Shown here piece after piece: positions 3,406 through 60,359 of a stretch of 64,000 bases of DNA (position 1 is its first letter; each line of letters opens with the position of its first letter). The position numbers and the translations under genes are program-made. The notes below the pieces were generated by a model, which was given only the letters and a program-made list of their open reading frames with translations, made no database searches and was not told the DNA's origin. This DNA comes from SAR116 cluster bacterium AG-321-K23 (GTDB lineage: Bacteria > Pseudomonadota > Alphaproteobacteria > Puniceispirillales > Marisalimonadaceae). The stretch spans positions 1-64,000 of the forward strand of contig QBXO01000006.1 in the NCBI GenBank assembly GCA_003284565.1. The letters are read 5' to 3'.

Positions 3406-4773
3406 TCAATTGCTAAAACTACTAAATTTATTTTGGACAGGTTTTTTTATGATTTTGGCGGTGGAAGTTGTTTTATTTTTATTACTAAATAAATTAATTC
3501 CTCTTATAAGGTCAACTGCACGAGATATTTGATTATCTTGTAAAAGTTTTTCAACTGGGGTTAATTCTGGCTTGTCTGCGTGATCTTTCTTTGTATCTTT
3601 TTCTTTTTTGTCTAAGGCTCCTCTTAAATTTTCCTCTCGTCTATCTTCTGGTATTTCTTTAGACAACTCAGTTATACCAGATTCTACTATTATATCTGGT
3701 TCAATGCCCTTGGCTTGTATTGAGATTCCACTTGGTGTGTAATATCTAGCGGTTGTAAGTCTCATTGCACCATTACCTGCTAAAGGAATTATAGATTGAA
3801 CTGATCCTTTACCAAAACTACGAGTACCAACTATTATTGCTCTTGAATGATCTTTTAGTGCTCCTGCTACAATTTCACTAGCAGATGCTGAACCACTATT
3901 GATAAGAACTATCATTGGTTTACCATGAATTATGTCACCTTTTTTTGCAAAAATTCTTGAAGTATCATCATCTTTTCTTCCTTGAGTTGATACTATTTCA
4001 CCTTGGTTTAAGAATGCGTCAGTAACTGAAATTGATTGGTTTAAAAGTCCTCCTGGATTATTTCTTAAATCTAGTATGAGTCCTTGTAATTTCTCTCCAA
4101 GTTCCTTTTTAATTTTATCTACAGATTTTTCCAGACCAGAAGTTGTTGTGTCTGAAAAAGTAGTTAAGCGCACATAACCTATATTTTTAATTACATTGTG
4201 TCTTACAGATCTAATTTTTATAACATCTCTAATTATTTCAATTTGAAATGGATCTTTTTTATCACGAACAACAGTTATAACAACTTTGGTTCCAACAGGC
4301 CCTCGAAGTTTAGATACAGCGTCATTTATTGAAAGTCCTCTAATTGATTCTCCATTTATACCAATAATTAAATCACCTGATTTCATTCCTGCTTTAGCAG
4401 CAGGAGTATCGTCTATGGGTGAAACAACTTTAACCACACCATTTTCCATAGTTATTTCGATACCCAAGCCACCAAACTTGCCTTTGGTCTTTACCTGCAT
4501 ATCTTTATATGATTCTGAACTCAAATAAGAGGAGTGAGGATCAAGCGATTGAAGCATCCCTGAAATTGCAGCTTCAATAAGTTTCTTGTCAGTAACTTCT
4601 TCAACATATTGTTCTTGTACTCTTTGAAAAACATCACCAAAAAGATTTAGTTGCTTATAGGTTTCTTGACGATTATCAGCTTTAGCTAAATTCTTATCAA
4701 GCAAACATATATTAAAAACCAAAAAAAATGCTAAAAATATATTTATATTATAATTAGAGATTTTTTTAATCAT
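3406..4773 (-). CDS. ctpA: carboxyl-terminal processing protease (S41)
   Basis: Periplasmic serine protease of the CtpA/Prc family that trims or degrades exported proteins and affects cell-wall enzymes. The 455-residue chain has an N-terminal hydrophobic segment (about 10-25) for export or anchoring, a PDZ domain at about 100-175 (KFGGLGIEIT, GLSINDAVSKLRG), and the S41 catalytic domain. The Ser-Lys dyad is seen as S297 in NSGSASASE and K322 in FGKGSVQ, 25 residues apart as in Prc. A charged low-complexity stretch follows near 375-405. It lies downstream of gpmI with an 87-base gap that holds no gene and overlaps the possible TTG start of rppH. Confidence 0.96.
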   Translation of the reverse strand: MIKKISNYNINIFLAFFLVFNICLLDKNLAKADNRQETYKQLNLFGDVFQRVQEQYVEEVTDKKLIEAAISGMLQSLDPHSSYLSSESYKDMQVKTKGKFGGLGIEITMENGVVKVVSPIDDTPAAKAGMKSGDLIIGINGESIRGLSINDAVSKLRGPVGTKVVITVVRDKKDPFQIEIIRDVIKIRSVRHNVIKNIGYVRLTTFSDTTTSGLEKSVDKIKKELGEKLQGLILDLRNNPGGLLNQSISVTDAFLNQGEIVSTQGRKDDDTSRIFAKKGDIIHGKPMIVLINSGSASASEIVAGALKDHSRAIIVGTRSFGKGSVQSIIPLAGNGAMRLTTARYYTPSGISIQAKGIEPDIIVESGITELSKEIPEDRREENLRGALDKKEKDTKKDHADKPELTPVEKLLQDNQISRAVDLIRGINLFSNKNKTTSTAKIIKKPVQNKFSSFSN

Positions 4774-4860
4774 TTAAGTAGGCCTTAATTTTAGTAGTAA
4801 CTCGCCGTAATAATATAGAATATATTTACTACAACAACTATAGAAAATTTAATTAAATTT

Positions 4861-6393
4861 TTATTTTACTAAAAGTGATTTACCACTCATGCTTTTAGGT
4901 GATTTGATAGATAGAAGCTCTAAAATTGTTGGAGCAATATCAGCCAGTCTTCCATCTCTTAACTTATAGTCATTATTTTTAGAAATTAGTACCAAGGGAA
5001 CTTTATTACATGTATGTGAGGTATGTGGTAAATTCATAATCTCATCAAACATAATTTCACAGTTTCCATGGTCTGCTGTTAATAGCATAATCCCATCTAA
5101 CTTAATTATCATATCTTTTACATTTCCTACAGCTGTATCCACAGTTTCTACTGCTCTAATTGCAGCTTTTAAATTACCGGTATGTCCAACCATGTCAGGG
5201 TTTGCAAAATTAATTATAATTAGATCATAAGTTCTATTTTTTATAGAGTTTATGAGTTCAGTTTCCACTTTTTTAGCTGACATTTCTGGTTTTAAGTCAT
5301 ATGTGGATATTTTGGGTGAGGGTATCATTATTCTAGTTTCACCAGGGTAAACAGTCTCTTCGCCTCCATTAAAAAAGAAAGTAACGTGAGGATATTTTTC
5401 TGTTTCAGCTAATCTCAATTGTTTTAAATTAGCTTTAGAAATAACTTCACCAAGAGTATCTTTGATCTTTTCTTTTACAAAAATAGAATTCATAAAATTT
5501 GATAATTCTGTTGAATATTCAGTCATTCCAAGATTGTTTAACAAAATTGGAGTATTACTATCTTTTTCAAATTCTTTAAATTTAGGATCTAGTATTGCTG
5601 TTAATAATTCTCTAACTCGATCTGCCCGAAAGTTTATCATGATTAAGCTATCACCATCTTCAAACCCTTTGTAATCTCCAATCAGAGTTGGAGATATAAA
5701 TTCGTCAGTTTCGTTATATTTATAAGCTTCTTCTAATCCTCTTGATATGTTGGAAAATTTTCTTTCATACTTTCCATATACAATCAGATCAAAAGACTTT
5801 TTTACTCTTTCCCACCTATTATCTCTATCCATTGAGTAGTATCTACCTATAAGTGAGACTATTTTTATATTTTTTGGTAGGGACATTTCAAATTTTCTTA
5901 TTTGCTGGCCTAATTGTTTTGGAGAACAATCTCGTCCATCTGAAAAAATATGGATGTAGGCTTTACAATTATTTTTATCCAAAAGTTTTGACATTTCAAG
6001 AATATGATTTGAATGGGAATGCACTCCACCGTTACTGCACAAACCTAGTAGATGAACAGTTTTATTTTTATTGTGATTTGATAAAAACTTTTGAAAATTA
6101 TTATTATTTTCTATTTTGTTATCAGCAAAAGCTTTGTTTATCTTTGGTAAAGTTTGAAGAACCACTCTTCCAGAGCCAAGATTCATATGACCAACTTCAG
6201 AATTTCCTACTTGACCTAAAGGTAAACCAACATCTTCACCAGAAGCATCTAGTGTTGCATATGAGAAAGTTTTAGTTAAAAGATCTATATTTGGAGTATT
6301 TGCTAATGCTACGGCATTATTTTCTGGGTTTTTATTAATTCCCCATCCATCCATAATGCACAAAACGATTGGTTTTTTTGGTGTCTCATTCAT
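4861..6393 (-). CDS. gpmI: 2,3-bisphosphoglycerate-independent phosphoglycerate mutase
   Basis: Interconverts 3- and 2-phosphoglycerate in glycolysis and gluconeogenesis by a Mn-dependent phosphoserine mechanism. The 510-residue length is standard. Metal-binding Asp is in CIMDGWG (D15), the phospho-accepting Ser in GNSEVGHMNLG (about S65), and the second metal site shows as FANPDMVGHTG and TADHGNCE, with a late PHTSHT His cluster. It starts 23 bases after rlmH, part of the housekeeping operon. No cofactor-dependent mutase is seen in the window, so this may be the cell's only one, but that cannot be judged here. Confidence 0.98.
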   Translation of the reverse strand: MNETPKKPIVLCIMDGWGINKNPENNAVALANTPNIDLLTKTFSYATLDASGEDVGLPLGQVGNSEVGHMNLGSGRVVLQTLPKINKAFADNKIENNNNFQKFLSNHNKNKTVHLLGLCSNGGVHSHSNHILEMSKLLDKNNCKAYIHIFSDGRDCSPKQLGQQIRKFEMSLPKNIKIVSLIGRYYSMDRDNRWERVKKSFDLIVYGKYERKFSNISRGLEEAYKYNETDEFISPTLIGDYKGFEDGDSLIMINFRADRVRELLTAILDPKFKEFEKDSNTPILLNNLGMTEYSTELSNFMNSIFVKEKIKDTLGEVISKANLKQLRLAETEKYPHVTFFFNGGEETVYPGETRIMIPSPKISTYDLKPEMSAKKVETELINSIKNRTYDLIIINFANPDMVGHTGNLKAAIRAVETVDTAVGNVKDMIIKLDGIMLLTADHGNCEIMFDEIMNLPHTSHTCNKVPLVLISKNNDYKLRDGRLADIAPTILELLSIKSPKSMSGKSLLVK

Positions 6394-6416: not shown

Positions 6417-6866
6417 TTATTTGTGGTAAGGATGACCATGAATTATAGTTTCTATTCTGTAAATTTGTTCAGCAATCATCATTTTAACCATTTGATGTGG
6501 CCATGTAAGTTTACCTAAAGCAATAATTTTATCTGCTGTTCTTTTTATTTTCATACCGTTTCCAAAAGCACCACCAATTGCAAAATTTACACTTGTAATA
6601 TTGCTGTTGCTCCAATTTAATATTAATTTTGCTAGATCTGAACTAGATATATTTTCACCTATTTCATCTAACAAGATCAATTTACCATCTTTAGGTGTTA
6701 AATTAATTAACTTGTCAGCTTCTTCTTCTATTCTTTTTTCTGTGTTTTTTGTTTTAACTTCGCATTGTTTTAATTCAATATTTCTTATTCTTTTAAGATA
6801 TTTTCTAGTAATCAAGTCTTCATCATTATTTTTAATTTTACCAATTGTCGAAATTATATATTTCAT
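6417..6866 (-). CDS. rlmH: 23S rRNA pseudouridine-1915 N3-methyltransferase
   Basis: SPOUT-fold methyltransferase that methylates pseudouridine 1915 in helix 69 of 23S rRNA on assembled 70S ribosomes. The 149-residue product has LILLDEIGENISSSDLA, the SAM-binding loop FAIGGAFGNG, and the characteristic C-terminus with LTWPHQM and HGHPYHK. It starts one base after the rsfS stop, so the two genes are probably translationally coupled. The rsfS-rlmH pair is conserved across bacteria, which supports both calls. Confidence 0.96.
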   Translation of the reverse strand: MKYIISTIGKIKNNDEDLITRKYLKRIRNIELKQCEVKTKNTEKRIEEEADKLINLTPKDGKLILLDEIGENISSSDLAKLILNWSNSNITSVNFAIGGAFGNGMKIKRTADKIIALGKLTWPHQMVKMMIAEQIYRIETIIHGHPYHK

Positions 6867-57562: not shown

Positions 57563-58612
57563 TTAAGGTATAATTACACCTTTACCATCTGATTGTTTGT
57601 CAAATAATTTATAGGCGTCTTCGGCTTGATTAAGCGACCACTTGTGAGTAAATAATTTGTCTACGTCAAGTTTTTTTTCTGCGACAAAGTCTGCACATTC
57701 GGCTTGTCCATGTTTTGAAAATGTCCAACTTCCTATAAGTGTAACTTGTCTTCTTAAAAGATCATTACTAACATCTAAAGTGACATCTCCACCTTCACCT
57801 ACAAAGCATGCTTTACCCCATGTTTTAACACACTTTACTGCTAATGATCGTGCTTCTGGTGAAGATGATGCCTCTAATGTTGCATCAACTCCAACACCTT
57901 TTGTCAGATCTTTGATTTCTTCTAATAAGTCATTACTTTCGAGCGGATTTATGAGGATGTTGGCTCCAAATTCAAGAGATCTCTCTAACCTTTGTTTATT
58001 TATATCTATTGCGATAACTTTAGATCCCATCTTATTGGCTAACATTACAGCTGATAATCCAACGGGTCCCATACCAAAAATTGCAATAGTTTGACTCGCT
58101 TTTAAATTTAATCTTTCTAGAGCCCCCCACGCTGTCCCAGTTCCACATGATATTGCAGCGCCAGCAACAAATGATATATCATCTCTTAAAGTAACTAATG
58201 TGCTAGCAGGACACTTCATATATTTAGCATGGGCGCCATGTCCAGTGACTCCGAAAACGGCTTTAACTCCTTCAATACAAAGTTGCTGCCATCCTGTGGA
58301 GCAATGTGAACAATTCCCACAGCCCTCATAATGATGTTGCATTACAGGAGTATCTAAACGAAAATCATTCTTTGAGATGTTAGAGCCTATTTCTACAATT
58401 GTTCCACATGGTTCATGTCCAGCAATAACTGGTTTGTCGTCTCCTCCAAGTCCTAGAGATGATGGTCCACTATTTGCTCTGTAGAACTTGAGATCACTTC
58501 CACACATTCCTGATGCCTTGATCTCAATAATCACATCATTTGGACCCGGTGTAGGGTCCTCAAAATCTTGAATTTCTAAATTCTTATCTCCTAAAAAAAC
58601 TACACCTTTCAT
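57563..58612 (-). CDS. zinc-dependent alcohol dehydrogenase family protein
   Basis: Medium-chain dehydrogenase of 349 residues. Catalytic zinc ligands are in MCGSDLKFYR (Cys), AGHEPCGTIVEIG (His-Glu), and structural zinc in GCGNCSHCSTGWQQLC (four Cys). Cofactor motif IFGMGPVGLSAVMLANKMG with DINKQRLE suggests NAD. It resembles threonine or sorbitol dehydrogenase-like enzymes. It follows the frame-broken cytochrome by 23 bases and converges with the MATE gene. Confidence 0.92.
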   Translation of the reverse strand: MKGVVFLGDKNLEIQDFEDPTPGPNDVIIEIKASGMCGSDLKFYRANSGPSSLGLGGDDKPVIAGHEPCGTIVEIGSNISKNDFRLDTPVMQHHYEGCGNCSHCSTGWQQLCIEGVKAVFGVTGHGAHAKYMKCPASTLVTLRDDISFVAGAAISCGTGTAWGALERLNLKASQTIAIFGMGPVGLSAVMLANKMGSKVIAIDINKQRLERSLEFGANILINPLESNDLLEEIKDLTKGVGVDATLEASSSPEARSLAVKCVKTWGKACFVGEGGDVTLDVSNDLLRRQVTLIGSWTFSKHGQAECADFVAEKKLDVDKLFTHKWSLNQAEDAYKLFDKQSDGKGVIIP

Positions 58613-58635: not shown

Positions 58636-59084
58636 TTAATTTCTAAACTTTTGATGGCATCCTTTACATGTTCTAGCAAGACCTCGGAAAGCAACCACTG
58701 TCTTGTCTAAGTTTTTTTCTTTAGAGTTATCAACTAATTTTAAAGAAGCTAACTCAAAATTATTAACTGCTTTTTTAAAACCTTCTGGATCTAACCAGAT
58801 ATCTCCAGAGGCTTCAGAAGGGGCTACGTCACTGCCTTTTGGGAAATAATTTATCATTTCTTTACTCCACTTTAAAAGGATAATCCCTGATTTTCCTATT
58901 GTTTCAAAATCTTCGTTCTGAATAGACCTGTGAATAGTTTGCATCATTTTTTTGCTCATCTAAATTTGTCCATTCTTTCTTTAATTACTCCTGTAGCACC
59001 CTCATGAGCAAGTAGAGGCGTTATAAAAACAAAGCTATTTATTAATAAGAAGCTTATATAATTTATTAGATTTTTTATTGCCAT
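58636..59084 (-). pseudogene. cytochrome c' (class II c-type), frame-broken
   Basis: A class II cytochrome c read in two frames. The first part, ATG at 59084 with AGAGG before it, encodes a signal peptide (INYISFLLINSFVFITPLLA) and the mature start HEGATGVIKERMDKFR, then stops at TGA (58958-58956). The second part starts with ATG at 58959, overlapping the stop as ATGA, and gives 107 residues with KGSDVAPSEASGDIWLDPEG and the heme site CKGCHQKF at the end. The family joins both parts in one chain, so one base is missing near 58957 (or inserted elsewhere). As it stands, the heme part has no export signal. It may be a real mutation, a sequencing error or -1 frameshifting. Confidence 0.85.
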
Positions 59085-59156: not shown

Positions 59157-60359
59157 TTGAAAAAGAGTAAAAAAACAAAGATAGAAAATTTAGATATCTT
59201 TCTATCCTTTCTATTATTAGGCCTAACCTCTTTTGGAGGACCAATTGCACATATTGGTTATTTTCGAAACTTTTTTGTAAAAGAAAAAAAATGGTTAGAT
59301 GAAAAGCTTTATGCTGATTTTGTTTCTCTTTGTAACTTTTTACCAGGTCCTTCTTCTAGTCAGGTTGGTATATCTATTGGCTATTATTTCAAAGGTATAA
59401 AAGGAGCAATTTTAGCGTGGGTAGGTTTTACGACGCCTTCAGTAATAATTCTCATGTTATTTGGTTACACAATTTTAAATTATGATAGCTCAATTCCTCA
59501 AGGTGTGCTCCAAGGCTTGAAAGCTATTGTTGTCGTAATCGTGTTTCAGGCAATATTAGGGATGAGTAAAAATTTATTAAAAGACAATTTTGGGTATATA
59601 ATTACATTTTTCACAGCACTGTTTTTAATAATTTTTCCATCATCATTTAATCAATTAATGTGTTTGATCATGAGTGGTCTAATTGGAGGATTTGTTTATA
59701 AAGAACAAAAAAGAAAAGAAAAAAACAAAAAGTTTTTTATTGACATAAGTTTTTGGAATTTTTTTCCATTAATTTTATTTTTTGTTTTTTTATTTATTCT
59801 ACCAATAATCACTGAGATTTTTAACTTTAATCTATTAAACTTAGCTAATAGTTTTTTTAAAGTTGGTTCCATAGTTTTTGGAGGAGGCCATGTTGTCTTA
59901 CCATTATTAAAAGAAGAATTTGTTGCTAGTGGAATGATTGAAAATGATCTATTTTTAGCAGGATATGGTGCGTCACAGGCGATACCAGGCCCTTTATTTG
60001 CATTTTCATCCTATCTAGGAATTTTCTTAAGAAGTGAATTCAATATTTTGTTTACAAGTTTATTTTGTTTGTTTTTCATTTTCCTGCCTTCATTTCTTTT
60101 ACTTATTGGCACTTTGTCTATATGGAATGAATTAAGAAAATTTAACTTAATTACTAATGTTTTTAAAGGCTTTAACGCTAGTGTCATAGGATTATTGATT
60201 GCGGCATTATATGATCCTATCATCATTTCTAGTCTAAAAAGTTATTATGATTTTGCTCTTATTTTAATTTCTTTTGTAGTTCTATTTTTTACTAAAATAC
60301 CACAATGGGCGGCTGTGTTCCTTATTTCATTTTGTGGTTGGATATTTACATATATTTAA
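59157..60359 (+). CDS. chrA: chromate transporter (CHR family, two-domain)
   Basis: Membrane protein of 400 residues with two CHR halves. Half 1 has LGLTSFGGPIAHIGYFRNFF and SLCNFLPGPSSSQVGISIGY; half 2 FKVGSIVFGGGHVVLPLLKE and GYGASQAIPGPLFAFSSYLG. The FGG and PGP motifs are family marks. Two-domain proteins export chromate, though related marine proteins may carry other oxyanions such as sulfate. The TTG start at 59157 has a weak AAGAG. It runs divergent from the cytochrome gene. Confidence 0.92.
   Translation: MKKSKKTKIENLDIFLSFLLLGLTSFGGPIAHIGYFRNFFVKEKKWLDEKLYADFVSLCNFLPGPSSSQVGISIGYYFKGIKGAILAWVGFTTPSVIILMLFGYTILNYDSSIPQGVLQGLKAIVVVIVFQAILGMSKNLLKDNFGYIITFFTALFLIIFPSSFNQLMCLIMSGLIGGFVYKEQKRKEKNKKFFIDISFWNFFPLILFFVFLFILPIITEIFNFNLLNLANSFFKVGSIVFGGGHVVLPLLKEEFVASGMIENDLFLAGYGASQAIPGPLFAFSSYLGIFLRSEFNILFTSLFCLFFIFLPSFLLLIGTLSIWNELRKFNLITNVFKGFNASVIGLLIAALYDPIIISSLKSYYDFALILISFVVLFFTKIPQWAAVFLISFCGWIFTYI

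Follow-up and report, generated by a model that had tools for sequence, protein, structure and literature searches.

Class II c-type cytochromes (PF01322) include cytochrome c' and cytochrome c556. In the narrow sense, cytochrome c' has a high-spin, five-coordinate heme, and cytochrome c556 is low-spin with a Met ligand. C-type cytochromes receive their heme in the periplasm, once they have been exported, and no attachment takes place in the cytoplasm. Our literature searches on cytochrome c prime and c556 found nothing of use. One report describes a streamlined SAR116 subclade with a low GC content of about 30% (PMC8547437), and the word "cytochrome" does not occur in its main text. The G+C of the window (the whole stretch of DNA that was analysed, 64,000 nucleotides) is 0.321, which resembles this low-GC subclade, and we infer that its genome belongs there.

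The window contains a class II cytochrome c gene that is read in two different frames. The 5' part (59084-58957, minus strand) encodes 42 residues, MAIKNLINYISFLLINSFVFITPLLAHEGATGVIKERMDKFR, followed by TGA. It consists of a signal peptide, assigned by eye along with its cleavage place, and the first 16 mature residues, HEGATGVIKERMDKFR, and was aligned to the N-terminus of the relatives. The 3' part (58959-58636, minus strand), in another frame, opens with ATG, ends at a stop codon, and encodes 107 aa. It holds the heme domain, with a PF01322 profile match of 64.5 bits (curated cut-off 26.5), a CXXCH motif near the C-terminus (CKGCH, followed by five residues), and 60-81% identity to 24 same-genus copies. 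Stop and start of the two parts share an ATGA at 58957-58960 on the minus strand. The first-pass annotation had described this as a cytochrome c' split at an ATGA whose heme part lacks an export signal as read, and both statements agree with the anatomy of the gene: leader and heme domain lie in different frames, so the window does not encode one exported chain with an N-terminal signal peptide. Neither the heme part nor one relative was assigned a family by NCBIfam.

The gene lies between a zinc-binding dehydrogenase gene (57563-58612, minus strand) and a gene of the chromate transporter family (59157-60359, plus strand). These conserved neighbours are intact, stand 544 bases apart, follow the same gene order as in relatives, and served as control genes in the selection analysis. 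Beyond a one-base gap at the junction, both parts align with the relatives without further gaps, stops, or indels, and the heme-binding motif is retained. In the window's genome, a partial assembly of 88 contigs that is 68.75% complete, PF01322 and the DNA of the locus each gave this one match, and no second cytochrome copy was found.

We searched 40 same-genus genomes, including the window's own, and found a PF01322 match in 25. In the other 24 of these, the gene is one open chain across the junction, which agrees with the statement in the first-pass annotation that family members are one chain (a contig end cuts the gene before its start codon in two of them, L017 and L022). Because the two parts form one open chain in these 24 genomes, they are one gene in two frames; chance ORFs were ruled out, as both parts match one conserved gene. 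That annotation had also suggested a comparison with close relatives, and the alignment shows the window to be one base shorter, just upstream of the ATGA, than all 24 unsplit copies, with the gap in the window only. This is the pattern of a pseudogene made by frameshift, with a disabling lesion that is absent from the orthologues. The aligned relatives (n = 14) are single chains of 148-149 aa with a leader. Of 23 loci returned, 14, the nearest named ones, are AG-numbered isolates recorded as uncultured SAR116 cluster alpha proteobacterium, with 78-81% identity in the heme part; the nearest copies are 81-86% identical to the window in DNA.

At the place of the junction, 14 of the 24 copies have ATGA as an in-frame Met-Ser, nine have ATAA, and one has GAAA. 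Since 14 relatives carry this in-frame codon pair, the overlapping stop and start came from a frame change over an old Met-Ser, and the start was not built for the split. An ATGA that separates two parts of a protein may thus be accidental, the codon pair being older than the frame break. Fifteen genomes had no match: G007 holds a remnant, three (G019, G025, and G033) have contig ends beside the locus, and the other 11 gave no hit to either flanking gene under the thresholds applied. Resolved loci numbered 26, with 24 unsplit, one frameshifted (the window), and one reduced to a remnant (G007). In another family of the same order, we also saw a PF01322 copy with an internal TAA (L016, G055:C23:28426-28776).

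We consider it probable, with some reserve, that a one-base frameshift recently inactivated what is otherwise an ordinary gene for a class II cytochrome c in a marine alphaproteobacterium of the SAR116 type. A single one-base deletion would place the signal peptide and the heme domain in different frames and inactivate the gene. The first frame would yield an exported stub lacking the heme site (CKGCH), and the second, if started at the internal Met, would yield a CKGCH protein that has no leader and stays in the cytoplasm; no holocytochrome would be expected from the gene as read. We infer that the mutation is real in the sequenced cell and leaves no working product, and that the gene is dispensable and being lost in the group. 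Other points count against this reading. The gene is usually kept, being present in 24 of the 26 resolved loci; the lesion is a single one-base event in one genome of the species, from a partial assembly (88 contigs); and the selection analysis given below does not separate a very recent mutation from an error.

The same gene was lost separately in G007. Its remnant lies at L082 about 4640-4960 (G007:C3:92640-92960), between intact dehydrogenase and chromate-transporter genes that stand about 260 bases apart, compared with 544 in the window. The start position reads ATA and is followed by TAA, eight leader bases are missing, and the heme domain is deleted. The junction is not shortened in this remnant, and the one-base lesion of the window is absent. 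A tree built from four flanking genes placed G007 with L047-L052, L054, L055, and L057 at 94%, apart from the window's genome, which branched near the base of the close group with a weakly placed exact position (48%). A lesion common to both genomes was ruled out, as the junction of G007 has its full length, its gene is broken elsewhere, and it is not a sister genome. Because G007 carries other lesions and is not sister to the window's genome, there has been at least one nearby loss of the cytochrome gene by a different route. We hold it as a tentative idea, about as easily doubted as believed, that class II cytochrome c has been lost repeatedly and independently in this SAR116 genus, with the window as a first step and G007 as a late step.

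The alternative that survives best is a data error, in which the gene of the cell is intact and a single base went missing during genome amplification, sequencing, or assembly. We regard this as possible but rather doubtful. It would account for a lesion of one base alone in an otherwise sound gene, on whose tip branch an omega of 1 is rejected. The AG-numbered records of close relatives are presumably single-cell genomes, where amplification errors occur, and this too counts in its favor. A literature search on SAR116 single-cell genomes and amplification indels found nothing.

We screened the assemblies for other breaks of this kind in two ways. The second screen used non-overlapping ORFs of at least 80 aa, dropped HSPs below 50% identity, and needed a hit on both sides of a break, so that breaks near gene ends would be missed. 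With the ORFs of G014 as queries (291 non-overlapping, 295 kb), 144 were covered to at least 80% in this assembly (121,398 bp), and the cytochrome gene was the only break. The compared portion was about 146 kb of 1.81 Mb and came from the whole of contig C6, 57 kb of C10, contig C38, and 4.6 kb of C62. Comparison with G009, over 64 of its 75 ORFs, and with G017, over 65 of its 78, showed the same single break. Reverse screens gave one break in G014, one doubtful 95-aa case in G009, and none in G017 or G007. The first screen, which dropped HSPs below 55% identity, had listed further breaks: a second one in the window near position 1180, three in G009, and one in G017. For the break near 1180 and those at 36.7 and 59.8 kb of G009, the queries overlap longer ORFs in another frame, and these breaks were treated as spurious; a 90-aa ORF of G007 that does not overlap a longer ORF appeared broken at 5.8 kb of G009 and at 68.5 kb of G017. 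An error-prone assembly was rejected as an explanation, as the second screen left the cytochrome as the only break in the compared portion of the window's genome.

Isolated one-base breaks are present in two other assemblies of the set, which again speaks for a data error. In L102 (alignment 18089-16735, G014:C1 about 137.3 kb), a gene of 451 aa lacks one base within a run of 7-8 A and is thereby broken; the same gene is intact in the window's genome (C10:19134-20489). In L057 at about 6420-6470 (AG-915-B22), the gene next but one, which we take by eye to be MATE-like, is broken by an extra T in a run of T, with 10 T compared with 9 in L048. The lesion of the window sits in a two-base run, as judged by the closer relatives. 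It is outside a long homopolymer, unlike the two resolved breaks elsewhere, and this contrast, drawn from two cases, argues against an error. The count of breaks argues in the same direction, with one among the 144 genes compared (121 kb), and that one in a gene which G007 lost through different lesions. On account of that separate loss, and of the lack of a second break among the 144 genes, we lean toward a real, recent mutation over a data error, although one base does not settle the matter.

Selection on the heme part was evaluated with 25 sequences over its 107 codons, and the figures are approximate, as the topology and relative branch lengths were fixed from a nucleotide tree. On the tip branch of the window, omega was 0.166, compared with 0.067 on all other branches (2dlnL 5.5). 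An omega of 1 on this tip was rejected (lnL -2397.79, compared with -2387.30 when free, or 10.5 lnL units worse). The flanking genes also had raised omega on their tips, at 0.093 compared with 0.048 (2dlnL 3.3) and 0.116 compared with 0.081 (2dlnL 2.1). Through most of the tip branch the gene was under purifying selection, and it may have decayed for a short time. Because the heme part bears this mark, the break is either recent or artefactual.

An older pseudogene, decaying since early on the lineage of the window, is very unlikely by the same analysis. The rise in tip omega is larger for the heme part than for the two flanking genes, which would fit such decay. We modeled the tip as constrained first and then free, with a dead fraction and, optionally, a flank-like rise of 1.65-fold chosen from the flanking genes. 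The best dead fraction for the cytochrome was 0.10 without this rise and 0.05 with it, values that would again allow some decay. A dead fraction of 0.3, however, costs 2.0 lnL units without the rise and 2.7 with it, and larger fractions cost more; a dead fraction of zero costs 2.1 without the rise and 0.3 with it, so that a very recent mutation and an error are not separated. The two intact flanking genes, as controls, gave best dead fractions of up to 0.05 without the rise and 0 with it, and a small value is thus no proof of decay. The lack of any further stop or indel and the retained heme-binding motif also argue against a long period of decay.

The first-pass annotation had offered a fresh mutation, assembly error, or frameshifting as explanations. 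The first two remain as readings, and the third was not borne out. Programmed frameshifting or translational coupling, by which both frames would make a working cytochrome or two products, might be suspected from the purifying selection on the heme part, and ATGA overlaps are common as coupling junctions. The split arrangement, however, is found in none of the 24 same-genus copies, where the ATGA is an in-frame Met-Ser in 14, and a coupled heme part would be made without an export signal. In the frame of the heme part, a TAG stands directly before the ATG, so that slippage before the last codon of the first frame would end at this stop. The annotation had suggested looking for a slippery sequence, and none was seen by eye in register at the junction. 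The stretch A AAT TTA has the look of a slippery heptamer, yet the first frame reads its codons there as AAA TTT, which puts the stretch out of register (also by eye). Folding of the 111 bases around the junction was not unusual (z -1.44, with 16 of 200 shuffles as stable). With neither a conserved split, a slippery site, nor a stimulator of a programmed -1 frameshift found at this junction, we reject this explanation with high confidence, as the least credible of all.

As a broken copy of a known family with no new mechanism, the locus matters little by itself. Should the lesion prove real, one genus would offer two independent losses in 26 resolved loci, a small test case of streamlined ocean bacteria shedding a non-essential heme protein. 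If loss in the genus is indeed repeated, the role of the cytochrome would be conditional in surface-ocean cells.

In comparison with known systems, the gene agrees with class II c-type cytochromes (cytochrome c', c556; PF01322) in its profile match over the cut-off and in its CKGCH near the C-terminus, and among solved structures its best relatives are 6a3l and 1jaf, which are named cytochrome c and cytochrome c', respectively. At mature residue 12 (L047-L060 and L035), 13 of the 14 aligned relatives have the Met of KERM and one has Ile. We take this Met to be at the heme ligand place of cytochrome c556, and the protein may, judging from these residues, be low-spin and c556-like rather than a true cytochrome c'. 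The window differs from class II cytochromes in that its chain is split by one base, with the leader and first mature residues set apart from the heme domain. As read, it agrees with single-lesion pseudogenes of streamlined marine bacteria in having one disabling base in a gene that is otherwise kept, and G007 corresponds to a late stage of such loss.
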